Source: a virus. From it: a stretch of DNA of 33,929 nucleotides. Position 1 is the stretch's first letter, and each line of letters starts with the position of its first letter. Below the pieces are notes generated by a model. It had not been told where the DNA came from. It did no database searches and saw only the letters and a program-made list of their open reading frames with translations. The stretch spans positions 1-33,929 of the IMG/VR virus record IMGVR_UViG_3300028595_000040. One strand, 5' to 3'. Positions 14,029 to 31,733 of this stretch are shown here, piece after piece. The position numbers were made by a program, and so were the translations under genes.

Positions 14029-14964
14029 CTACGAGTTGAGGACGTCGTAAGCCTTGACGACCGCGGTCTCCTCGACGAACAGGACGTCGAACCAGAGTTC
14101 CACCACGATGATCATGACGCCCGCCGACACGTCCTTGCCGGTGTCGATGCGAACCTTCTTCCATACGCCGTAGTCGATGTTCTTCGGGTGGCACAGCAAG
14201 ACGTTCGTCTCGTCGACGCCCGAGAACCCGGTCTCCGGGAACAGGGTGTAGTCCTCGACGGGGATCTTGTGGTACTTCGGGACCCCGCCCTCCTGGTGCA
14301 TCTTGTCGCCGAGCATCGTCCCACGAGCCGAGAGGAACTTCGTGTAGTCGAGCTGGGCGTTGACCGAGGTCATGTACTCCATCTCGCTGATCTCGGAGAC
14401 GAACTCCTTGGGCAGCTGGCGGAGCATGGCGTCGAGCAGATCGTCGTCGACGCGAGCCGAGCCACCGTTGACGGTGTTCGTCGTCGCCTTGACGAGGATG
14501 CCGTTGAGCTGCGAGAGCAGCGGGTCTGCGGAACCGGTGTCGCCCTGGATGAGCACCTTTTCCGCGTCGCGGCCGACCGCCTCGGACAGGGTGTCCATGA
14601 TGGTCTGCTTGAGGTTGCCGCGTTCGATGCTCTGTTCGAGGACGGCATTGTTCAGCCGCACCTCGGCCTTGAACATCTTGGCGTCCCACTGGACCTTGCC
14701 GAGATCGGGCTTCGACCGCTGCGCCGCGGGCAGTGCCACGCCGGGGGTCCCGGGCTGAAGCACCTGGCCGGCGAAGCGGATCTTTTCGACGAGCTGGGTC
14801 GGCGAGTCGAGGGGGGTCAGCCCGATCTTCCCCGAGAGCTTCGGCTTACGGACCATGATCCGCATGAACTGCTTGGCCTGCGCCGGCTGAAGAAACCCGC
14901 CGTCGGTCGTCAGGTCTGAAAGCGCCAGGTCGGCCTTCGCCAGCAGACTCCTGTTCTCCATCAT
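14029..14964 (-). CDS. Major capsid protein (HK97 fold)
   Basis: The 311-residue protein forms the capsid shell. It starts with a helical arm ('AKADLALSDLTTDGGFLQPA', about 9-28) and an 'AKQFMRIMVRKPKLSGKIGL' stretch, typical of HK97-fold coat proteins that have no long delta domain. Further typical parts are 'RLNNAVLEQSIERGNLKQTI' (about 104-123), 'GRDAEKVLIQGDTGSADPLL' (about 131-150), and a C-terminal 'VLLCHPKNIDYGVWKKVRID' strand (about 256-275) ending in the P-domain-like 'DVLFVEETAVVKAYDVLN'. The ATG has AGGAGG 9 nt upstream. The order protease, scaffold, capsid supports the call. Confidence 0.9.
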   Translation of the reverse strand: MMENRSLLAKADLALSDLTTDGGFLQPAQAKQFMRIMVRKPKLSGKIGLTPLDSPTQLVEKIRFAGQVLQPGTPGVALPAAQRSKPDLGKVQWDAKMFKAEVRLNNAVLEQSIERGNLKQTIMDTLSEAVGRDAEKVLIQGDTGSADPLLSQLNGILVKATTNTVNGGSARVDDDLLDAMLRQLPKEFVSEISEMEYMTSVNAQLDYTKFLSARGTMLGDKMHQEGGVPKYHKIPVEDYTLFPETGFSGVDETNVLLCHPKNIDYGVWKKVRIDTGKDVSAGVMIIVVELWFDVLFVEETAVVKAYDVLNS

Positions 14965-16396: not shown

Positions 16397-19300
16397 TCAA
16401 CCCCTAGCTGAGACCCTCCGTGCCGAACCCCCGATACTGAGTCCCGACAGCTTGCCGTCCTTCACCTTCGCCCAGAGCGTCTCGTCCGCGATCCGAAGCC
16501 CGAGGAGCCACGTTCCTTCGCGAACATGCTGCACCTTCTCCGACCCCTTCGGTTTCTCTGAGTAGGTCGTGCCGTCTTCGGTGACCCAGAACTCGACGGG
16601 CGACAGGTACGATTCGAGGATCTTCACCTTGCCGTTGATCAGCGTGCGGTGCATGAACCCGATATTTCGGAAGTCCTCCATGAACCGATGGGCCGACTGG
16701 CGGATCTCGTCCCGCGAGTAGATGTCTCGCTGGGTGTCGGGGTCGAGCGGCGCGCCGTCGCGCCCGTCGTTCGGCTCGAGCACGACGCCCAGCACGTACT
16801 GCTCGTCCTTGGTCTTGACGATCGGGATCTCGTCTGCGGACTTCGCGAGCGTCTCTTCCAACGCGCCGTCGTCGTTCTTCTCGCGTCTCGTGTACGCCCC
16901 GCCCCTATTCGAGATCCTGCGAGAATCGAGTCCGACCATCGTCTCGAACAGCTTGGCGTCCATCTTCGCTGTGACCTTGTCGGCCCCTGCTTCGATCTCT
17001 TTCTGAATTCTCTTCGTCTGCGAATCGCCGAACAGCCGTTTGAACGCGCCCTCCCATGCCTTGTAGCCGGGCATTCCGCCGACCTTGAAGCACTTCAACA
17101 GGAAAAACCGATCGCGCACCACGATCGTCCCATTGCTCAAAACCTTCAGAGGCTCGGTGACGCAGGTCAACGGCTTGTCGCCGGTCTTGTGCAGTTTGCA
17201 CAGACCGTCCTCGTCCTGGCACGGGCAGTACCGACCGTCGCCGAGATCGATGGCGCCGTTCTTGATCGCGATGCCTCTTTTCCGCAGACGCTTCGCCTCG
17301 TCATCGGTGACAACAACCGTCGCCCCCTTGCCGCCTGGCTGGCAGCACTTCCCAGCGCAACCGTCATCCGAGCAGATCCAACCAGGGTCGCAGCCGTGCC
17401 ACGTGTTCTTGAATGTCTTGACCGAGATCGAGCACTCGACCATGCCATCGTCGCCTGGCTTCGCGTCTGCCTTGAACAGGTAGTGCTTCGTCACGACGCG
17501 TCGAAACGAGCCGTCGACCAGGCGCACGTTCTCCGGGGTGAAGAACGACGAGCCGACGAGCGCATCGCGCATCGCGCGCGCTTCGCGCTCTGTCTTCGCT
17601 TCCCAGAATCGATGCTCGCTCGGCGTCGCATCCATGAGCGACGTCGGCATCGCAGAGCGACCCAGCGGCGGCATCTCGCCCGTCTTGACTGCGTGCGTCT
17701 TCAAGACGCTGGGCAGGTACGACTTGCCGAGCCACGCCGTCCAGACCGTCTCGTCGCCAGACTCGACGGCGAGGCGCACATACAGAATGCCGCGCCACGT
17801 CTTGTCGCCGGTCAGGAAGTACTCGTGGAACTGCGGGAGTTGGAGTCCCCACTCGACCATCGGCCGCGCGACGGCGACCATGACGCCCTTCTCCCGAGAC
17901 GTCGCGCCGATCTCGCCCTCGCCGAAAACCTCGCCTTCGATGTCGAGCCACTCGGCGGGCTGGCGCTGTTTCTGGGTCACGCGCATCTTCGACGGGGCGA
18001 GGATCGGCTTCAGGTATCGGTTGCCGCGCTCTGCGTCATATCCCTGATAGAGCGCCCGTGCCTTGTCCATGCCGTCAACGTCTGGCACCTCACCCGGTCG
18101 CTGCGCAAACAACGTCCACCCGATCAGTGTCCCGTTGACCTTCATGCGGAGGTCGAGGTGCGCCGTTCGCCCCCTCGTATGCACCTGTACGACAGCGGGT
18201 CGCGGCCCTGTCTTCTCGGGCCATGTCAGCGTCGGGTTGTCCTGCTTGAACAGCGACGCGACCAGCTCTGCGCTCATCCTCACCATCTGACGTCGTTCGC
18301 TCGGCACCAGCGCGAGGTCGTACAACGGCACGTGGTCGGTGAACGGCCCGCCGAGGTCGTCTCGGTGGAACTCGACGCGTTTCGACAACGACGGCGGCAA
18401 CGCGCGACCGATGCGGAACTCGACGACCTTGCGCACCTCGTCACTGAGCGGCCCGTGCAACAAGACGTCGACGTCGCCGCGCGTCTTCGACTGGGTACAC
18501 GCACTGCCGACGACCGACACGGCGGGCGCACGCAGCACGATCGGCTTCTCGAACGACGGCAAGATGTCGTCGACGCCGACCGGGTCGGCCCCGCCGTTCG
18601 AACCAGGTCGCGTTTCGGCTGTCGCGCGGTCGCCAGCCTTGACCGCGTCTCGGTACAGCGTGGTCGTGTCGTCGACAACGAGCCCGCGTCGGTCCATCTC
18701 ATCCCAGACCCGCGTCGCCATCTTGACGACGTCGAGCCGGTCGTCCTCGTCGGCCGAGTCGTAGACCTCGCCGAGCTTCGACGCGGCCTCGACGAGTTCG
18801 CCGTCAGACGTCTCGCCGAACGCCGCCGGCAACACCTCTTCGGCATACGCGCGGCGCACCGACGCCTTGATCATCTCGAACACGAACTCAGGGTCATCGT
18901 CGCCCTTGCCGACCTTCGGGTCGAAGTTCGTAAAGATCGAAGCGACGACGAACTGCTCCTTGATATGGTTGTCCGTGCGGCGCCCATACCAGCCTTTCGG
19001 CCACCTGAAGTTCGTCTCGTGCCATCCCTTCATCCCGCGCAGCGGGTCGAGCGACTTGTGGCGCCCCTGGATCACGATGACGGCCTTGCCCTTGATGCCC
19101 TCGTAGACCTTCGCCTGCTCCTCGACGTCTCGCAGCGGCAGCTTGTAGAGGCCCGACTCCTCCGGGTACGGCGGGTCAATGAAGAACAAGGTGTCCGGTG
19201 AGTCGTACTTCGCGATCACCTTGCGGTAGTCGAGGTTCTCGACCTTGACGCCCTTCGTGCGAGCGCGGCACCGACGGATGCGATCGAACGGGCGCATCGT

Positions 19301-20965
19301 CGACCCCTCGGAGATCTCGTAGAACTGCCCGAGCCGGTTGATGCCCCACTTCGAGAACCGCCGCAGGTAGAGCTGACGATGTACCCACGCCAGCTCACCC
19401 GTCGGTGCGGGCGTCTTGACGATCTTGTGGAACGTCGTTTCGCGTCCGACCCAGTCGAAGTCGCGTTCGAGCTTTTCGAGCTGCGCGTCGGTCGCGTCAC
19501 GGCAGAACGTGTGGAGACGAACGATGTCGGGGTCGAGGTCGTTCAACACCTCCGTCTCAGCCTTGCGCTTGTGGCACCAGATCATCTCGCCGTTGCCGCA
19601 GAACACCTCCACGTATGTCTTGAAGGCGGAGGGGAACGTCGGGAGGATCTTCTCGGCGAACCTGCCGAGCATCCCGAACGTCTTGAACCAAGGCCACTTC
19701 GGCGTCTCGTCCGACGGCCCGTCTGCCTTCGTGAGCCCGACGTCCCACGCCGCCTTCCGCGCCTTTCCCGGTGGGTCGTAGTTCACGAACATTGATCCCC
19801 AGACCCACGGCTCTTTCGGACCGCGCGGGGTGTGGTACCACTTGCGGGGCCAGCGGAACTTGAACTCTCGCCAACCCTTCATCTCGATGAGTGGACGCAG
19901 CGACTCGCGGCTGCCTTCGATGATGATCATCGCCTGGCCTTTGAGTCGCTGGTAGTGGTCGGCCTGCTCGCCGAGGTCCGGCATCTTGAAGGGGTAGTAC
20001 CCCTGTTCTTCCGGGTACGGCGGGTCGATCTCCCAGAACGTGTCGGGCGCGTCGTACCGCTTGATCGCCTCGCGGTAGTCGCGGTTCGAGATCTCGACGC
20101 CTTGGAGCCTCGCCCTACACCGCCGAATGCGATTGAACGGCTGCATGGTGCCGCCCGACGAGAACTCGGCATAGCGCGGCTTCGCGCGACCGAACTTGCT
20201 GAACCGACGAATGTAGAGTTCACGGTGGAAGAACTCGAGGTCGCCCTTCGGCGTCTGCGCCTTCACGAGACGGTCGAACATGCCGGCGCTGCTCTGCCAT
20301 TCCATCTTGGCGAGCTTGGCGAGGTCGGCGTCGGTGAGCCCCTGGCAGATGCGGTGGAGCCGCACGATGTCCTTGTCCAGATCGTTGATGACCTCGCGCT
20401 GAGCACGTTTCGGATGACACCACAGCATCTCGACGTTGCCGCAGAACAGCTCGGCGTAGGTGCGCGGCGCCTCCTTGGGGAACAGGGGCATGATCGACTC
20501 ACCGAACGGCGTCAGGATGCCGAACGTGCGAAAGAACGGGTGGCCCGGCGTCTCGTCACTGGGCTTCACACCCGAGCCCTTCAAGACGTCGTCGAGGTCT
20601 CCGTCGACGAGCCACGGCTGAGACGCCTTCCGGATCTTCGTGACCGTGCCGCCGAGAGCCTCGACGATATGTTCGACCGCGGGCTCGACCGGGACCTCCT
20701 TGTTGCAGCTCAGCACGTCGAGCTGCGCCATCTCGTGCTCGGGCCAGGTGTGGATGGCGAGGTGCGACGTCGACAAGAGCAAAAGCGCCGTGACGCCCTG
20801 CGGCTCGAACTTGTGGACCGACTCGTCGAGAACCTGCGACTTCAAGATGCCCGCGGCCTCACGAAGGGCGACGAGGATGCGGTCCTTGTCGTCCAGCGCG
20901 TTGCCTGGCGCGTTGAACTCGACGTAACGATGGAAGGACAGCCCGTTCTCTTTCGATGCGACCAC
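16397..20965 (-). CDS. 1522-residue multi-enzyme protein: SpeD, two Dam MTases, NTase-like, LigD-PE-like, Cys cluster, XkdF prohead protease
   Basis: One open frame, GTG start with GGAGG 6 nt upstream. Domains: (1) class-1b AdoMet decarboxylase, residues 8-120, pyruvoyl Ser67, His72, Cys87; (2) D12/Dam methyltransferase 139-395 with motif I FCGNV (174-178) and DPPY 314-317; (3) second methyltransferase 423-685 with FCGNG (455-459) and DPPY 597-600; (4) nucleotidyltransferase-like, GS (820-821), D831-x-D833, D883; (5) LigD 3'-phosphoesterase-like about 922-1090 with H929, H936-x-D938-x-R940; (6) YkgJ-like Cys cluster 1192-1268; (7) XkdF (S78-type) prohead protease about 1380-1522 with His1439 and Ser1510 in LSGLSIGG. 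The scaffold and capsid genes follow. Usual XkdF proteases are far shorter. The protease is certain enough to name; roles of the other domains in the virion are inferred. No frameshift or intein is seen. Confidence 0.88.
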   Translation of the reverse strand: MVASKENGLSFHRYVEFNAPGNALDDKDRILVALREAAGILKSQVLDESVHKFEPQGVTALLLLSTSHLAIHTWPEHEMAQLDVLSCNKEVPVEPAVEHIVEALGGTVTKIRKASQPWLVDGDLDDVLKGSGVKPSDETPGHPFFRTFGILTPFGESIMPLFPKEAPRTYAELFCGNVEMLWCHPKRAQREVINDLDKDIVRLHRICQGLTDADLAKLAKMEWQSSAGMFDRLVKAQTPKGDLEFFHRELYIRRFSKFGRAKPRYAEFSSGGTMQPFNRIRRCRARLQGVEISNRDYREAIKRYDAPDTFWEIDPPYPEEQGYYPFKMPDLGEQADHYQRLKGQAMIIIEGSRESLRPLIEMKGWREFKFRWPRKWYHTPRGPKEPWVWGSMFVNYDPPGKARKAAWDVGLTKADGPSDETPKWPWFKTFGMLGRFAEKILPTFPSAFKTYVEVFCGNGEMIWCHKRKAETEVLNDLDPDIVRLHTFCRDATDAQLEKLERDFDWVGRETTFHKIVKTPAPTGELAWVHRQLYLRRFSKWGINRLGQFYEISEGSTMRPFDRIRRCRARTKGVKVENLDYRKVIAKYDSPDTLFFIDPPYPEESGLYKLPLRDVEEQAKVYEGIKGKAVIVIQGRHKSLDPLRGMKGWHETNFRWPKGWYGRRTDNHIKEQFVVASIFTNFDPKVGKGDDDPEFVFEMIKASVRRAYAEEVLPAAFGETSDGELVEAASKLGEVYDSADEDDRLDVVKMATRVWDEMDRRGLVVDDTTTLYRDAVKAGDRATAETRPGSNGGADPVGVDDILPSFEKPIVLRAPAVSVVGSACTQSKTRGDVDVLLHGPLSDEVRKVVEFRIGRALPPSLSKRVEFHRDDLGGPFTDHVPLYDLALVPSERRQMVRMSAELVASLFKQDNPTLTWPEKTGPRPAVVQVHTRGRTAHLDLRMKVNGTLIGWTLFAQRPGEVPDVDGMDKARALYQGYDAERGNRYLKPILAPSKMRVTQKQRQPAEWLDIEGEVFGEGEIGATSREKGVMVAVARPMVEWGLQLPQFHEYFLTGDKTWRGILYVRLAVESGDETVWTAWLGKSYLPSVLKTHAVKTGEMPPLGRSAMPTSLMDATPSEHRFWEAKTEREARAMRDALVGSSFFTPENVRLVDGSFRRVVTKHYLFKADAKPGDDGMVECSISVKTFKNTWHGCDPGWICSDDGCAGKCCQPGGKGATVVVTDDEAKRLRKRGIAIKNGAIDLGDGRYCPCQDEDGLCKLHKTGDKPLTCVTEPLKVLSNGTIVVRDRFFLLKCFKVGGMPGYKAWEGAFKRLFGDSQTKRIQKEIEAGADKVTAKMDAKLFETMVGLDSRRISNRGGAYTRREKNDDGALEETLAKSADEIPIVKTKDEQYVLGVVLEPNDGRDGAPLDPDTQRDIYSRDEIRQSAHRFMEDFRNIGFMHRTLINGKVKILESYLSPVEFWVTEDGTTYSEKPKGSEKVQHVREGTWLLGLRIADETLWAKVKDGKLSGLSIGGSARRVSARG

Positions 20966-21052: not shown

Positions 21053-21493
21053 CTACAGGCCAGCGGGGTCGGGACCCCAGTCGACGCGGTCGTCCTCGTT
21101 GTCGGCATTGAGGTCGTGACCCCACGCCACGTCGTCGGCTTTCGCCGTGGACTCACGGTCGGACACGTCGCCCGACAGACGCCCCTTGATCGCGTCCATC
21201 GACTTCGACACCGGCATGGAGGCGGCGCCCGGTGCGTCGCTTCGGGCCTGCTCGAGCAGGCCCGCCGGCACGTCCACCGTCTCGTATTCAGCATCGCTCT
21301 CGGCCCAGTCGGACAGAGCCTTGGTGATGTGGTAGGCGCGAGCGAACAGACCCCGCACCTCGTCGTCGGTCAGCCCGTCATCGGTCGCGGCCTTCGCCAA
21401 CGTCGACGACACGAGGCCGAGCGCCTCGGGCACGTCGACCGTCTCGGTCTTTTCTGCGTCGCTGAACATCTCGTCGATTCGGTCCAGGCTCAT
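21053..21493 (-). CDS. Hypothetical protein with ETVDVP repeats and DDVAWxxDLN motif, 146 residues
   Basis: An acidic helical protein, unrecognised. It contains the hexapeptide ETVDVP twice (residues 17-22 and 71-76), each opening a helical segment. Near the C-terminus 'ADDVAWGHDLN' (about 119-129) resembles the C-terminal 'DDVSWPLDLN' of the scaffold protein. The start ATG at 21493 overlaps the upstream stop (ATGA). It is encoded just before the protease polyprotein, so it may be an internal head protein or a second scaffold part. The shared motif could be a head-targeting or protease-recognition element. Both ideas are inference. Confidence 0.68.
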   Translation of the reverse strand: MSLDRIDEMFSDAEKTETVDVPEALGLVSSTLAKAATDDGLTDDEVRGLFARAYHITKALSDWAESDAEYETVDVPAGLLEQARSDAPGAASMPVSKSMDAIKGRLSGDVSDRESTAKADDVAWGHDLNADNEDDRVDWGPDPAGL

Positions 21494-21888
21494 TGCTCGC
21501 CCCTTCCCGGGATGATGATGGGCGACGATTCGCCCGATCGCGACAGCGCCGAGAGTCGTCGTTCTCTCTCGACCCTGCCCGCCGCTTCGGCACCCCACAT
21601 GGCGCTGCCGTCGGCGCCAATCATGATCTTTGCCCAATCGGGTATCGGTTCGAGCCCGTCCAGGCCGCGAACCAGGAACGCCGGGAGATGGTCGAGCGCG
21701 CGTTGTCCCGTCCAGCCGCTCTCGTTCACGAGAGTCAGATAGACGTCCTTCGCCAGCTCGACACGTCTCAGCACCTCGCGCCTCGTGATGTTCCCGCTGG
21801 GCATCGGGCGCGAATCGAAGCTCGCTTCGATCACGTTGGTGATCGCTGTGAGGGTCTCGGTGCTCATGTTGCTCGACGTCGCCGACAT
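21490..21888 (-). CDS. Hypothetical protein, 132 residues, first gene below the long non-coding region
   Basis: Mostly helical, with 'LTAITNVIEASFDSRPMPSG' at about 13-32, 'LRRVELAKDVYLTLVNESGW' at about 40-59, then 'GLEPIPDWAKIMIGADGSAM'. No family recognised. The start at 21888 has GGAGA 4 nt upstream and lies below a good promoter candidate (21904-21933), so this gene probably opens the transcript that runs into the protease, scaffold and capsid genes. A second ATG at 21867 is a weaker start. The position between MuF and the protease genes suggests a head-related role. Confidence 0.66.
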   Translation of the reverse strand: MSATSSNMSTETLTAITNVIEASFDSRPMPSGNITRREVLRRVELAKDVYLTLVNESGWTGQRALDHLPAFLVRGLDGLEPIPDWAKIMIGADGSAMWGAEAAGRVERERRLSALSRSGESSPIIIPGRGEQ

Positions 21889-23150: not shown

Positions 23151-23211
23151 GGGTCCTCCGTCAGGACACCCTTGACCCCGCGATGGCTCGCCACCTCGCG
23201 GGGTCTCTTTT
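23151..23211 (+). ncRNA. Candidate 61-nt small RNA
   Basis: It has a promoter immediately upstream, and two hairpins fill its length: GGGTCCT paired with AGGACACCC (2-nt bulge, 5-nt loop, 23151-23171) and the terminator stem. It matches no RNA family I know. The 3' end meets the stop codon of the converging MuF gene, so it could also act as an antisense or transcriptional roadblock at that end. Confidence 0.42.
23174..23211 (+). terminator. Strong rho-independent terminator, plus strand
   Basis: GACCCCGCG (23174-23182) pairs perfectly with CGCGGGGTC (23197-23205) across a 14-nt loop and is followed by TCTTTT. On the minus strand there is no T-run after the stem, so it is oriented for plus-strand transcription although the adjacent genes are on the minus strand. 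Confidence 0.7.
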
Positions 23212-24520
23212 ATGCGGGCGTCGTCGTCGTTCGGCAGCGGTGGTGATACGGGGGCAGGCCGATCGCCGCAGACACGAGATCAGACGCGCTCATTCCGCGG
23301 CTGAAGCTCGACGTGATGTTGCGACCAGGCGCCGCGCCAGAAGATCGCTGGTCAATGCGCGCGACCGTCGCGAGCAAGCCGTCGAGGCGAGGCACGGTGA
23401 GGCGGTCGCCATCGTCACGGATGAACGGCTGGTGAACCATCACGCCTTCGGGATTCGGGTCGGCGAGTGAACGCTCGAACGCCTGCATACTCGGCCCTAC
23501 CGGCAGGATCTTCTGGTGCAGGAACTCGCACTGGTGCGTGGTGCGGTCATCGAGCACTGCCTCGATGCGAAAGAACTCGATCCCCGCTGCGCGATAGCTC
23601 GCGCCCATCGAATACGACCGAGCACGCGCGACACTGTTCGCCGCCACCGTCTCGTAGTAGCCGCGCATTCTCAGCCCGCCCGTGGTCAGCCGTTCGAGGT
23701 CGTTCGCGATCTCGCGACGCCCCGCGCCGCGTTCGACGCCAGCCGCGATGATCGACCGCGCCTGCGCGCTGAGCGACTGAGAGACCGCGCCGTACTCGTT
23801 GCGCACGAAGAACGAATGATGGCGCGAGAGGAGGTCGGCGACGCGGCGGTCTTGAAGCTGAAACCCCGTCCCGAGCGCCTGCCGCAACTGTGGCAACCGA
23901 GAGACTCGCTCTCCCGTCGAGCTGACGACACGGCGCAACGTGCGATCGATCTCGACACGTTGGAGGTCCATCATGCGACCTGGCGGGCCGGCGATCGTCG
24001 TGCGGTAGCCGAGCAGCGCGCGGTCGAGCTGTTGCGGCGTCACGCCTCGAAAGTCGATCGCGAGGTGTTCGAGCGCCTCGGTGCCCATCGCCGCGAGGTC
24101 GGCACGAGATACGCGCAGAATGTTCCCGGCCATCGACTCGGCCCACGACTCGAACGCCTCGGGCGTCAACGGGTCGGCCTTCAACGTCGCGACCCGACCC
24201 ACGGCCTCGAACACCGGAAGATCGTGAGCCGTCATGCCGACCTGGCGAGCAACGATGACGGGGTCGCCCGTCGTCTTCGCGAGACCGACCGCTCGTGCTC
24301 CCGCGCTCTCTGCCGAACCGCGATGACGCACGACCCGTGCTGCGCCGTCGAACACTGCGACGCACAACCACTGCGACGAGCCACCTTTCCGTAGCCGATG
24401 GGAGCCGCCCGATGTCGCGTCTTCGATGTCGCCGCCCACGATGCGAAACGGCGCAAGCGTGAACATCTGCCGCCCCTCGGGACGGAACCACTCGCATCGT
24501 CCGACGCGCGAGACGTTCAC
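23210..24520 (-). CDS. Minor head protein, MuF/SPP1 gp7 type
   Basis: This is a 436-residue protein. The C-terminal half is a MuF domain: 'SAQARSIIAAGVERGAGRRE' and 'IANDLE', then 'GYYETVAANSVARARSY', the metal-site-like 'DDRTTHQCEFLHQKI' (about 324-338; Cys331, His334) and the closing 'LPPYHHRCRTT' (His426, His427, Cys429), which is diagnostic. Such proteins sit inside the head near the portal and are needed for assembly or DNA ejection. The N-terminal 200 residues are not recognised. The true start is GTG at 24520, 4 nt after the portal stop. The order portal, MuF supports the call. It is followed not by the protease but by the long gene-free region. Confidence 0.86.
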   Translation of the reverse strand: MNVSRVGRCEWFRPEGRQMFTLAPFRIVGGDIEDATSGGSHRLRKGGSSQWLCVAVFDGAARVVRHRGSAESAGARAVGLAKTTGDPVIVARQVGMTAHDLPVFEAVGRVATLKADPLTPEAFESWAESMAGNILRVSRADLAAMGTEALEHLAIDFRGVTPQQLDRALLGYRTTIAGPPGRMMDLQRVEIDRTLRRVVSSTGERVSRLPQLRQALGTGFQLQDRRVADLLSRHHSFFVRNEYGAVSQSLSAQARSIIAAGVERGAGRREIANDLERLTTGGLRMRGYYETVAANSVARARSYSMGASYRAAGIEFFRIEAVLDDRTTHQCEFLHQKILPVGPSMQAFERSLADPNPEGVMVHQPFIRDDGDRLTVPRLDGLLATVARIDQRSSGAAPGRNITSSFSRGMSASDLVSAAIGLPPYHHRCRTTTTPA

Positions 24521-24524
24521 GGCG

Positions 24525-26336
24525 TCACCGCGCTTCGGTCTCGAACAGTGAGTCGAACTCGGCTTGAGGCAGGGTGATCTTGACGACGTCGGCTGCCTTC
24601 TCTTCGTCGTCCGACCCTTCGTCGGACCTGTCGTCGGTTTCGACGTCTTCGGGCAGCGGCTCGGGCTCCAACCCGGCCAGGGCGTACTTGAGCGGCATTC
24701 GAGCCCACGGCGCATCAAACGGCGGCATCTCGATCCCGAGCACGGTCGACATGCGGCGACGCGCCTCGTTCGGCGACATGATGCCTTCCAGCAGCTTCGT
24801 CACGAACTCAACCAACGTCTCGTTGTCGACCGATTCCGGCGCGTTCAGACGAAACCGCCAGAGCATGACGCCCATGTCGGTCAACAGCGTGCGGTCGATG
24901 TCGAACTCGAAATCGCGCCGCTCGGGCGCAAAGACCAACTGCTCTGTCGCGTCTCGCGCGATCTTCGCCGTGGCCCTGTTCAAGCTCTCGGTGTCGCCGC
25001 GCAACATCGGCGGAATTCGGAACGACTGTCCCAGCTCGTTGCGGTTCTCCTTGGCGTAGCCCTGCCACAACGCGTCCTTGAAGATCGCATCGGTGAGCGG
25101 CTTCAGTTCGATCTTGACCTTGTCCTGTGACGGGAGCCCCGCCGCGCCAGCCGAGCCCGTGGACTCGGCCTGGATGACGATCACCTTGTGGAAGTTCTCG
25201 ACGCCACGGATCTCGTGGAGGAGCATTGACTCGAGTTTCTCTCGAGTCCCCGCAGCGAGCTTCCCTCCCGAGACCATGATCACCATCGGCGGGATCGCCT
25301 TCGACCGGAAGAAAAGAAGGTTGACCTCGGCCTGCTCGCGCGAGCCGATGACACCAGGGACGCAGCCCGACCAGCGGATCGTGCCGTACACGTCCGACTC
25401 GGACGAATCGAGGTTGAACCAGACCACCTCGGTCGCCGGCATCGAGCCTTTCTCTTCTCTCGCCAGCGTCTTTTCGTCCTCGTAGTACTTCCCGGTCTCC
25501 GACGACATGACCCGCCGGTCGCCGAACTCCTTGAAGTACCGGCGACGCGACTCGTAGACCTGGACGTACCTTCGGAATCCGACGTTCTCCTCGACCTCTC
25601 GAAACGAGATGTCCGTCGCCCTTACCCGACACTTCGTCTTGACGGGCTTGCCGAGCTTCAACGCGCGAAACGTCCACGACGGCGCATGGGTCAGCCGCAC
25701 CACGTTGCCGTTGCGGTCCCTGCGAGCCTCCCAGACGCCCCAGCCCGTCCCCTCCTTGTCGCCTTGCATCTTGCGAGAAAGGCGAGAGAAGGAAACGGTC
25801 CGCGATGCGTTGCGGAAGAACGCGTCGAGGCGCGCTTTCTCGCGCCGCGCCTGCGTGCGCAACGACTCGATCCGCTGTTTGACCTCGTCGTCGGTCGGTT
25901 CGTTGATGTCGCTCGTCTCTTCGCCTTCGTTCGTCGTTCGTTCGGCCTCGTACTCGCGTTCGAGAAGCATCGCAGCACGAACACGATCGGCAGCATCCGA
26001 CGCGTCGAGATCGATGACGGGCTCGAACCAGTAGCCGAAGCCGTGGACGTTGACGGCCATGGCGTCGATGAGTGGTCGCAACGTCGGCGACATACCGACG
26101 AGGCGGGTCAACGACAGGGGGTCGAGCGGAGGTTCGAGAGCGCCGGCACGGTTGAAGACCGTCGACATCGACTCGGCCATGTCGAGCAGGTTCGATCGTT
26201 GGACGTCGGCGTTCTCGTCGCCTGCGCCCAACAGTTTCTTCCTGATCGCCACGGGCAACGGGACGACGTCGGCCTTGACCGAATCGTCTTCACCCGCCGC
26301 ATCGAGCGGCGCGGTCATGTCGTCGGTAGCCGACAT
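24525..26336 (-). CDS. Portal protein (PBSX-type phage portal family)
   Basis: This 603-residue protein forms the dodecameric DNA channel at one capsid vertex. Family features include 'DPLSLTRLVGMSPTLRPLID' (about 73-92), 'VNVHGFGYWFEPVID', 'EVVWFNLDSSESDVYGTIRW' (about 295-314), 'AEVNLLFFRSKAIPPMVIMV', 'FKDALWQGYAKENRNELGQS' and 'FRIPPMLRGDTESLNRATAK', the last being the usual portal wing/stem pattern. Start at ATG 26336 (TAATG overlap with the upstream stop; GGAG 3 nt and GAGG 9 nt upstream) is preferred to ATG 26345, which sits too close to the GAGG. The C-terminus is acidic ('DVETDDRSDEGSDDEEK') and may reach into the head. Confidence 0.88.
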   Translation of the reverse strand: MSATDDMTAPLDAAGEDDSVKADVVPLPVAIRKKLLGAGDENADVQRSNLLDMAESMSTVFNRAGALEPPLDPLSLTRLVGMSPTLRPLIDAMAVNVHGFGYWFEPVIDLDASDAADRVRAAMLLEREYEAERTTNEGEETSDINEPTDDEVKQRIESLRTQARREKARLDAFFRNASRTVSFSRLSRKMQGDKEGTGWGVWEARRDRNGNVVRLTHAPSWTFRALKLGKPVKTKCRVRATDISFREVEENVGFRRYVQVYESRRRYFKEFGDRRVMSSETGKYYEDEKTLAREEKGSMPATEVVWFNLDSSESDVYGTIRWSGCVPGVIGSREQAEVNLLFFRSKAIPPMVIMVSGGKLAAGTREKLESMLLHEIRGVENFHKVIVIQAESTGSAGAAGLPSQDKVKIELKPLTDAIFKDALWQGYAKENRNELGQSFRIPPMLRGDTESLNRATAKIARDATEQLVFAPERRDFEFDIDRTLLTDMGVMLWRFRLNAPESVDNETLVEFVTKLLEGIMSPNEARRRMSTVLGIEMPPFDAPWARMPLKYALAGLEPEPLPEDVETDDRSDEGSDDEEKAADVVKITLPQAEFDSLFETEAR

Positions 26337-26620
26337 TAGCTCCATGCCTCGATGTCTACGGTCTCCCCGCCCGCCGCCGACTGCAGAAAGATCCTCGACC
26401 GTCCAGACGTCTCGACCGTGCCCGCGTCAGGCAGTGTCGCCGTCGACGGTCCGACACGGGCAGAGATGGTCGGCGTGGTCTCCTTGCCGTCGAAGCTGAC
26501 CTCGATCGGCCCGTCTCCCGCAGTGGTCAGACGAACGCGCCAGCCGCGCGGCACGAATCCACAGTCCCAGCCGTTTCCCCATGCCGCGGGCACGGTTACG
26601 CGGTTCGAGTACGTCGACAT
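26336..26620 (-). CDS. Small hypothetical beta-rich protein, 94 residues
   Basis: Predicted all-beta: 'NRVTVPAAWGNGWDCGFVPR', 'WRVRLTTAGDGPIEVSFDGK', 'SRIFLQSAAGGETVDIEAWS'. It resembles small phage proteins that decorate or plug the virion, but no family is recognised. GGAGG lies 8 nt before the ATG. Its stop overlaps the portal start (TAATG), so the two are translationally coupled, which suggests a head role rather than lysis. Confidence 0.68.
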   Translation of the reverse strand: MSTYSNRVTVPAAWGNGWDCGFVPRGWRVRLTTAGDGPIEVSFDGKETTPTISARVGPSTATLPDAGTVETSGRSRIFLQSAAGGETVDIEAWS

Positions 26621-30101: not shown

Positions 30102-31733
30102 CTATGCCGCGCGCAACCACTCGCGGTCAAGGCGACCGAACGACACACCGTTCCCTCCCTGCTCGCTGTCAGGTATAAGGCTCTGCCGTTCTCTCGTGTC
30201 ACCGATGACCGACACGTCGACGTCGACCCCCGGTCCGTCGTCGTCACCGCCGAACGCCTGGGCTAGATTCAGCGCGTACACATAGGCGTCGACCATGTCG
30301 TCGTTCGCCGACAGCGGGAACTCGGTCAGCTCGCCGATGAGGTCGCCGTGCTCGTCGGGGTTGTAAAGGCGACCTGGTTCGAGCGTCGGGTTGAACACGA
30401 CCTGCCCGCGCTCCATGAGCGGCGTGATGTTCATGAGGCGAATCGACTTGGCGAGGTGGGGTCGCATCGGCAAGACGGAGAGCAGAGTCGTCGCGTCGAG
30501 GTACTGAGAGAGCGACTTCATGTTCTCCTGCTCGAGCCCGATCATCTGCGGCATCCACCGACGCGCCACCGATTCGATGGCCTCGGCGCGGGCGAGGAAC
30601 GTCAGCTTCGCATGCCATGATTCGAGGACGTACACAGTCGCCGTCGCTGGGTCGACGCCGACGACGACGCACGCGAAGTAGTCCTTCGACGTGCCCGACG
30701 AGACATCGAACGCGGCAAAGACGCGCAACGACGCGAGGTCTGGCGGCTTGACCCAGTACCCGATCCAATCCGAGTTGATCACGGTGATGTCGCCCGACAG
30801 CGCGATGAGCCTGAACCCCCTGTCGTACTCGAGCTGGCCGATCTTCATGCGTCGACGTTCGAGGGCTTCGCGCGGCCACTTCTCGGACCAGATCGGGGCG
30901 AAGTGGTCGCCCTGTTCACCGACGGCGTATCGGAGGTGTCGGTAGGTCGGGTTCGCGCGGATCTTATGGGTAAGGTCCGCAACGTGCCACGGCGTCGCGT
31001 TGTAAATCGACTGGGCGTTCGGTTCGAGCAGGTTCGACCAGTCGGCATCCCACGCCGTCTTTACCGTCTCGCGGAGCTTCGGCAGCTCCAGCGCGTTGCG
31101 CCGGTCCACCACGTCGTCGGCGAGCAGGAGGTCGGCACGACCGCCCGTCGCAGTCGACAGGACGCCGAGCGCCTCGATTGAAGCGTCGCGCGAGATATAT
31201 GAGCGGTCGACGACGATCTTGTGTTTGGTCCAGTCGCCCCGGCGCGCCGGCTTCAACCACGGGAACACGGCCTGGACGCGATCGTTCTGTTCGAGGTGTT
31301 GGGTGATCGCGAAGAGACGCTCGATCGCCTTGCTGTCCGACGCACAGACGATCTTGATCCGCATGTTCGGATTGTTGCCGAGCCGCCAGATCGCGTGCGC
31401 CTCGAGTTGTGTCGTCTTGCCGTGGTCGCGGGGGAACTCGTTGACACAGTCCTCGCCGCTCGCCATCGCGGCCTGTAGCTCCCGGTGGATATCGGCCTGC
31501 CGCAGGCGAGCGCCGGTCTCCGAGTCGTGGAAGCAGAACTCGACGAACCGGTTTGGATCTTCGCGGGCCTGCCGCACCTCGGACGTGAACCTCGCCTTGG
31601 CGCGCTTCAACAGGTGGTCGCGCTTGTTGCCCTTCGGCCCCTCGGCCCACCGTTGCTTACGCTCTCGACGACGCGCGGCATTGACCCGTGCAGCTTCGCG
31701 CCGAGCGTCAGTGGATGGTGCGCCCTTCGGCAT
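30102..31733 (-). CDS. terL: Terminase large subunit
   Basis: This 543-residue protein packages DNA. ATPase part: a Walker-A-like 'FPRDHGKTT' (about 100-108, a variant with Asp-His before GK), Walker B 'LLLADD' (202-207) and coupling region 'SIYNATPW'. RNase-H-fold nuclease part: 'FAAFDVSSGTSKDYFA' (Asp343), 'MIGLEQENMKS' (Glu401 or Glu403) and the closing 'SANDDMVDAYVYAL' (Asp478, Asp479, Asp482). All three acidic clusters are present, so the enzyme should be active. The N-terminus is highly basic. It overlaps the small subunit by 26 nt, and the start ATG at 31733 lacks a clear Shine-Dalgarno, so it is probably coupled. Confidence 0.93.
   Translation of the reverse strand: MPKGAPSTDARREAARVNAARRRERKQRWAEGPKGNKRDHLLKRAKARFTSEVRQAREDPNRFVEFCFHDSETGARLRQADIHRELQAAMASGEDCVNEFPRDHGKTTQLEAHAIWRLGNNPNMRIKIVCASDSKAIERLFAITQHLEQNDRVQAVFPWLKPARRGDWTKHKIVVDRSYISRDASIEALGVLSTATGGRADLLLADDVVDRRNALELPKLRETVKTAWDADWSNLLEPNAQSIYNATPWHVADLTHKIRANPTYRHLRYAVGEQGDHFAPIWSEKWPREALERRRMKIGQLEYDRGFRLIALSGDITVINSDWIGYWVKPPDLASLRVFAAFDVSSGTSKDYFACVVVGVDPATATVYVLESWHAKLTFLARAEAIESVARRWMPQMIGLEQENMKSLSQYLDATTLLSVLPMRPHLAKSIRLMNITPLMERGQVVFNPTLEPGRLYNPDEHGDLIGELTEFPLSANDDMVDAYVYALNLAQAFGGDDDGPGVDVDVSVIGDTRERQSLIPDSEQGGNGVSFGRLDREWLRAA

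Follow-up and report, generated by a model that had tools for sequence, protein, structure and literature searches.

Polyvalent proteins, in the accessible part of their 2017 description, are large multi-domain phage proteins that are predicted to be packaged and injected; in one sub-class they bear an assemblin-like peptidase, which always lies at the C-terminus and probably processes them (Iyer et al. 2017, PMC5512222). The same text recounts that phage P1 carries the methylase DarB in its virion, where it shields incoming DNA, and that P1 DdrB is proteolytically processed (PMC5512222). Like the proteins covered by that text, the one described here strings several disparate enzyme domains along a single chain in a portal–terminase phage. 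It is encoded in a stretch of 33,929 nucleotides, positions 1 to 33,929 of IMG/VR virus record IMGVR_UViG_3300028595_000040 (hereafter the window), and runs from a SpeD module through two methyltransferases, a nucleotidyltransferase (NTase), a phosphoesterase (PE) and a Cys-rich segment to a prohead protease (Table 1). We regard as the probable reading that this polyprotein, from a tailed virus, is self-processing cargo, which would be packaged, cut and delivered, and would then protect or repair incoming DNA or counter defence.

The initial annotation had read the fusion as a single 1522-residue frame, giving no strand; the frame is indeed single and lies on the minus strand. Its GTG start follows the ribosome-binding site by 6 nt, and GC3 stays between 0.80 and 0.91 along the whole gene. 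A codon score, trained on the genes for capsid, portal and terminase and taken per 100-codon block, is above zero in frame in every block and below zero in both other frames. Because the coding signal is uniform, there is no sign of a frameshift or of joined neighbouring genes; the frame is one gene and no accidental run. Single-sequence scans with the whole protein and with its second methyltransferase returned no close relatives.

Table 1. Modules of the fusion protein and head genes around it, with window coordinates
Feature	Position	Strand	Basis or remark
Whole fusion gene, 1522 aa	16397..20965	(-)	Single open frame, GTG start, GGGAGG upstream
SpeD module, residues 1-118	20612..20965	(-)	PF02675 4.7e-25; PDB 1tlu 1.7e-13; Ser67, His72, Cys87 conserved
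D12/Dam-type methyltransferase 1, residues 137-400, DPPY at 314	19766..20557	(-)	Pfam PF02086
D12/Dam-type methyltransferase 2, residues 419-685, DPPY at 597	18911..19711	(-)	PF02086 2.1e-17
Helical segment, residues 691-790	18596..18895	(-)	Similar segment precedes NTase in relatives
Minimal Pol-beta/MNT-type nucleotidyltransferase, residues 795-920, GS...DVD	18206..18583	(-)	Motif conservation, Foldseek
LigD 3'-phosphoesterase-fold domain, residues 924-1146, HLDLR at 936	17528..18196	(-)	Structure prediction; weak PF13298
Cys-rich segment, residues 1186-1296	17078..17410	(-)	Position of second phosphoesterase domain of relatives
XkdF-type (S78_2) prohead protease, residues 1377-1522	16397..16837	(-)	PF14550 6.9e-21; His and Ser invariant
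Terminase large subunit	30102..31733	(-)	phrog_38 1.9e-66
Portal protein	24525..26345	(-)	phrog_12 6.7e-30
MuF-type minor head protein	23210..24718	(-)	True start probably within frame
Small acidic protein directly upstream of fusion	21053..21496	(-)	Start is an interpretive reading
Scaffold-like protein, 429 aa	15085..16374	(-)	phrog_3017, phrog_13975
Major capsid protein	14029..14964	(-)	phrog_1623 8e-71

The Pfam match to SpeD covers residues 19-114, and in an alignment with the T. maritima enzyme the module keeps the pyruvoyl Ser67, His72 and Cys87, all residues of class 1b AdoMet decarboxylases. We predict an enzyme of the AdoMet decarboxylase type, with a fold and motif that do not by themselves fix AdoMet as the substrate. 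Both methyltransferases match PF02086 and carry DPPY, as D12/Dam N6-adenine methyltransferases do. They share 52% identity with each other but no more than about 38% with the best matches found elsewhere, and the pair therefore looks like a lineage-specific duplication. Profiles and conserved motifs thus agree with the initial annotation on SpeD and on the two Dam-type enzymes. No SpeD fusion outside the window was found among the relatives examined; in the related virus of the L038 record SpeD is a free-standing gene (G015:C1:22921-23268), so it also occurs unfused in the group.

Residues 691-1522 were modelled with AlphaFold2 at a mean pLDDT of 66. The NTase segment has no Pfam match, and a profile search gave DNA polymerase beta matches that were all sub-threshold; its G..DxD motif, however, is invariant across 22 aligned sequences, and its predicted structure finds MNT antitoxins in Foldseek with a probability of 0.95 but an E-value of 0.2. 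A minimal NTase fold with hG[GS]...DxD places it in the Pol-beta superfamily, so that the original call of an NTase-like domain stands by motif and fold and not by Pfam. Much the same is true of the proposed LigD-PE-like domain. The seven best PDB matches to its model are all LigD 3'-phosphoesterases (Foldseek, E 4e-6 to 7e-4), and its pLDDT is mostly 75-94 with short weak stretches; because its score against PF13298 (LigD_N), 12.6 bits, lies below the curated cut-off of 31.1, we file it as a divergent homologue by fold and not as a standard LigD_N member. The Cys cluster is real, but the segment has sub-threshold matches only (DUF7210, 7e-4; DUF3109, 0.02) and low model confidence. PF03692 (CxxCxxCC) was considered as its identity and gave no match. 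The XkdF-type protease is secure: PF14550 aligns with residues 1384-1517 at 75 bits against a cut-off of 24, and the catalytic His (FMHR, 1437-1440) and Ser (LSIGG, 1509-1513) do not vary across 14 aligned sequences, deposited phages among them.

In order of transcription, the head genes of the window are terminase, portal, MuF, small genes, the fusion, the scaffold-like protein and capsid, which agrees with the earlier placement of the fusion just above scaffold and capsid. The scaffold-like protein has at its N terminus an element, SLVNRAANKRRW, resembling the one before the protease in canonical XkdF proteins. It is as if an ordinary protease–scaffold gene had been split and its protease half then joined to cargo. 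The small acidic protein and the scaffold-like protein have similar C-terminal motifs (DDVAWGHDLN and DDDVSWPLDLN, respectively), which may form a tail that binds capsid or scaffold.

Searching with an NTase–PE profile recovered 31 viral loci and, at that strictness, none in 84,980 species genomes, although both domains are present in the Myxococcales MAG locus L131, which came to light later by way of its protease. The larger of these relatives are proteins of up to 2226 aa that comprise NTase, PE, a second PE, ligase, sometimes a D12 methyltransferase, and a C-terminal XkdF protease; by profile the second PE is a LigD phosphoesterase (PDB 3p43, E 7e-7). In other NTase–PE relatives the cargo order differs, and the protease is of the S78 type, encoded by the gene that follows or, in L030, fused to the cargo. 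An ATP-dependent DNA ligase is present in 14 of 17 NTase–PE records and absent from the window; the suggestion that the protein repairs DNA ends therefore has good support in the family and less in the window. Additional modules include PNK 3'-phosphatase and 2H domains in L012 and L037 and a metallo-beta-lactamase fold in L035; L028 has a weak match to pyrimidine-dimer glycosylase. Ligase motif I reads KxNG in place of KxDG in one sub-clade (L007, L014, L016, L017, L023), and the ligase of L022 is reduced to a remnant.

LAGLIDADG or intein matches occur in two of these cargo proteins, by the ligase in L038:5647-10851 and between the PE pieces in L035:7582-13236. In the 838-aa portal gene product of L023:2-2515, two portal-like parts are separated by about 250 unmatched residues, which may be an intein or an inserted domain. 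The first 320 or so residues encoded from L017:5782 onward have no Pfam match; this part contains DSGAYSD, and we take it to recall a 7-deazaguanine/queuine transglycosylase-type protein.

A profile built from the closest proteases picked up 56 loci in bacterial genomes and 242 viral ones; of the latter, the best 80 were used. Extensions in front of the protease are the rule: among 71 dereplicated XkdF proteins with an intact start, from viruses and proviruses, 68 have at least 150 aa N-terminal of it. A single methyltransferase precedes the protease in 27 of these proteins, two in nine and three in five; six carry NTase-PE-PE-ligase, several others a PE and one a 2H domain, and in nine the extension has no assigned domain. 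A methyltransferase–protease fusion in a Myxococcus provirus is 450 aa long. Within the best 80 of the 242 viral loci, a capsid gene lies downstream in all 59 with more than 2.5 kb of downstream sequence, and a portal, MuF or terminase gene lies upstream in all 40 with more than 3 kb upstream. L115:1162-5625 places four D12 methyltransferase stretches and a Tad3-like Thoeris inhibitor (PF25185, 1.8e-8) before the prohead protease, and L110, whose start is cut, is a second Tad3-like fusion. In L097:3928-5319 a 2H phosphoesterase (PF13563, 3e-10), which could act on nucleotide immune signals, stands ahead of the XkdF protease, and inorganic pyrophosphatase is fused to it C-terminally in L116:2881-6825 and N-terminally in L174:2206 onward. 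L131 encodes a 2122-aa protein with the order MT-MT-NTase-PE-MT-PE-ligase-XkdF (MT, methyltransferase). The exact domain order of the window protein did not recur among these relatives, but this kind of protein is widespread.

Most of the hosts named are Myxococcota, among them isolates of Myxococcus xanthus, Corallococcus and Citreicoccus, and from these relatives our guess for the host of the window virus is Myxococcota or a neighbouring lineage. The head genes nearest to those of the window are in L051 and L047 (capsid identity 57% and 54%), and the fusions of both carry other cargo; cargo thus turns over faster than head genes. Every cargo module has a dN/dS of 0.005-0.17 across three pairs of relatives, on a par with the value for the protease or lower. 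In the pairs tested, the cargo enzymes are maintained by purifying selection.

Prohead proteases work inside proheads, and an N-terminal part fused to one should therefore enter too. On the cargo model, the C-terminal XkdF protease would enter the prohead for maturation, carrying the N-terminal enzymes with it, and would there free itself and probably also the modules. These would remain part of the virion and be delivered to the next cell along with the DNA. In that cell, the two Dam-type methyltransferases would protect the arriving DNA against restriction. Damaged or nicked ends would be tidied by the NTase and the LigD-type phosphoesterase and, in the relatives, sealed by the DNA ligase. 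SpeD would first cut itself, forming the pyruvoyl group at Ser67, before taking AdoMet or a basic amino acid as its substrate. Its role might be to make a polyamine precursor, to reduce AdoMet as a counter to AdoMet-dependent restriction or to decarboxylate another substrate. Phage T3 lowers AdoMet against such restriction using a different enzyme; depletion by SpeD is hard to reconcile with the adjoining modules, since these require AdoMet. A cargo of 1522 residues occupies room in the capsid, so its copy number would have to be low.

Comparison of the genes favours packaged cargo, by the constant position in the head operon, the exchange of modules, the counter-defence and repair content, and selection. 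Specifically, the protease stays C-terminal while the modules in front of it are exchanged among relatives, and proteases of the S78 family are likewise fused to the same cargo (L030) or lie directly behind it. The repertoire is coherent (D12 methyltransferases, PE, NTase, ligase, PNK 3'-phosphatase, 2H, Tad3 and the weak glycosylase match), and protection from restriction, end repair and a Thoeris inhibitor are the first needs of an incoming genome. P1 DarB and DdrB, together with the C-terminal assemblin-like peptidases of polyvalent proteins, offer precedents (PMC5512222), and the NTase-ligase-PE protein of ANMV-1, beside a portal-like gene, fits the same picture. For the cleavage step, K-[AS]-[DE] occurs in linkers of the window protein at 413 and 1165, with KSA at 1375, and in capsid N termini such as SLLAKADLAL. 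As a shared cleavage motif between modules, however, K[AS][DE] was negative in 17 family proteins under a crude definition of linkers: 6 of 36 occurrences fell in non-conserved stretches against an expected 17% of length, no better than scrambled motifs. K[STR]IPL[LI]K, conserved just before the protease core in many family members, may lie near a cut site or may simply be the first strand. Cargo with a separate S78 protease gene has no obvious packaging tag, which counts against the cargo model.

The best-surviving alternative, which we nevertheless think unlikely, is that the enzymes act in the producing cell or at packaging, methylating and repairing progeny DNA on its way into the prohead, after which they leave with the scaffold, degraded or expelled; on this view the fusion brings them to the site of packaging. 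Gene context and selection data fit it too (methyltransferase action before packaging would also explain the purifying selection), and prohead proteases usually degrade scaffold. Its difficulty lies in the Tad3 fusions of L115 and L110 and the 2H fusion of L097, whose products are expected to act early on host immune signals and would make little sense at packaging. We give less credence still to a plain gene fusion whose products the protease releases in the cytoplasm, as ordinary late enzymes and no parts of the virion. No packaging signal was identified, and fusion could serve co-expression alone; set against this are the activity of prohead proteases inside proheads and the fact that the cargo keeps to the head operon even when its protease is separate or belongs to another family, which co-expression would not need. 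It is highly improbable that the N-terminal modules are enzymes that have worn out and persist as structural filler or internal scaffold: the KxNG sub-clade and the L022 remnant would suit such decay, but the low dN/dS in each module tested and the retained DPPY, HxD and GxDxD motifs speak against it. An assembly or sequencing artefact, which the initial annotation had raised and which a single metagenomic record with a module order found nowhere else might invite, has a negligible chance, given the uniform coding signal and the numerous independent relatives that show joins of this kind, among them Myxococcus and Corallococcus isolate genomes.

The packaged-cargo reading may extend beyond the window. 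We put at about even the chance that the prohead protease acts as an exchangeable carrier of cargo throughout a large group of tailed viruses, mostly associated with Myxococcota. Anything joined to its N-terminal side would then be packed into the capsid, released and delivered, and the MuF–scaffold region would be a slot for anti-defence and DNA-repair enzymes, in which modules of unknown function are candidate new anti-defence proteins. Because Tad3-like and methyltransferase fusions share this slot, the unassigned modules are good candidates for anti-defence or genome-repair functions. If this is true, SpeD, a polyamine-type enzyme, is what the window contributes to the repertoire of the slot, and virion-delivered effectors could be sought by a simple rule, namely by looking at what is fused ahead of the prohead protease. 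Such fusions also point to a natural tag by which enzymes might be loaded into capsids, and they raise the question of whether tailed viruses repair their DNA ends with imported enzymes before gene expression.

Several known systems share parts of this arrangement. Internal proteins of phage T4 are processed, reside inside the virion and are ejected with the DNA; the likeness is one of analogy. Bacterial and archaeal LigD end-joining enzymes combine a 3'-phosphoesterase and nucleotidyl transfer in one chain, as here, and have a ligase, as do the window's relatives. The polymerase of LigD, however, is primase-type, whereas the NTase of the window is of the Pol-beta/MNT type and is accompanied by no ligase. 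ANMV-1 AJP62006, labelled 'ATP-dependent DNA ligase', has an NTase and a PE homologous to those of the window and lies in the head region next to a portal-like gene, but its ligase stands between the two and it has no protease, SpeD or methyltransferase.

The XkdF/PBSX-type proteases of deposited phages belong to the same family and occupy the same place before scaffold and capsid, but those examined are short and carry no recognised enzyme cargo (PaP1, 156 aa; RHph_TM16, 210; PBP180, 363; HCTV-2, 533). 'DNA methyltransferase' annotations in Pakpunavirus were set aside as evidence of fusion, the PaP1 protein being 156 aa and protease only. This XkdF protease (L003:4923-5393, PaP1 gp048) and those of other Pakpunavirus probably received the label from methyltransferase–protease fusions. 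Among 50,697 phage records, no place covered at least 80% of the M. xanthus AM003 methyltransferase–protease fusion. The unnamed PHROGs family phrog_13242 matches the window in three stretches, and relatives without a methyltransferase match it only at the protease; it therefore most likely spans methyltransferase and protease, so that uncommented examples are already in databases. The literature searched, which largely excluded subscription papers, yielded no description of prohead-protease fusions with this cargo. The earlier statement that no described protein has this order holds for the exact order, found nowhere else, but not for the kind of protein, which is widespread; the SpeD-containing order appears unique so far.

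The closest likeness is to the polyvalent proteins. As far as the accessible text of their description goes, they share DNA methylases, Pol-beta NTases and 2H domains with the fusion family (PMC5512222); the XkdF protease is C-terminal and may belong with their assemblin-like peptidases. In that text the commonest peptidase is of the zincin type, which Pfam does not report in the window protein, and most of the Pol-beta NTases are from conjugative elements of firmicutes; it never uses the word decarboxylase, the ligases mentioned in its body are RNA ligases, and a LigD phosphoesterase or DNA-ligase kit was not encountered (PMC5512222). P1 DarB is there a methylase–helicase and DdrB has a zincin peptidase, neither being described in the accessible text as a prohead-protease fusion. 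The general idea, polyvalent proteins with an assemblin-like peptidase as their C-terminal part, was published in 2017 (PMC5512222), and, judged against the accessible part of that description, the fusion family is an unusually systematic form of the polyvalent-type theme.
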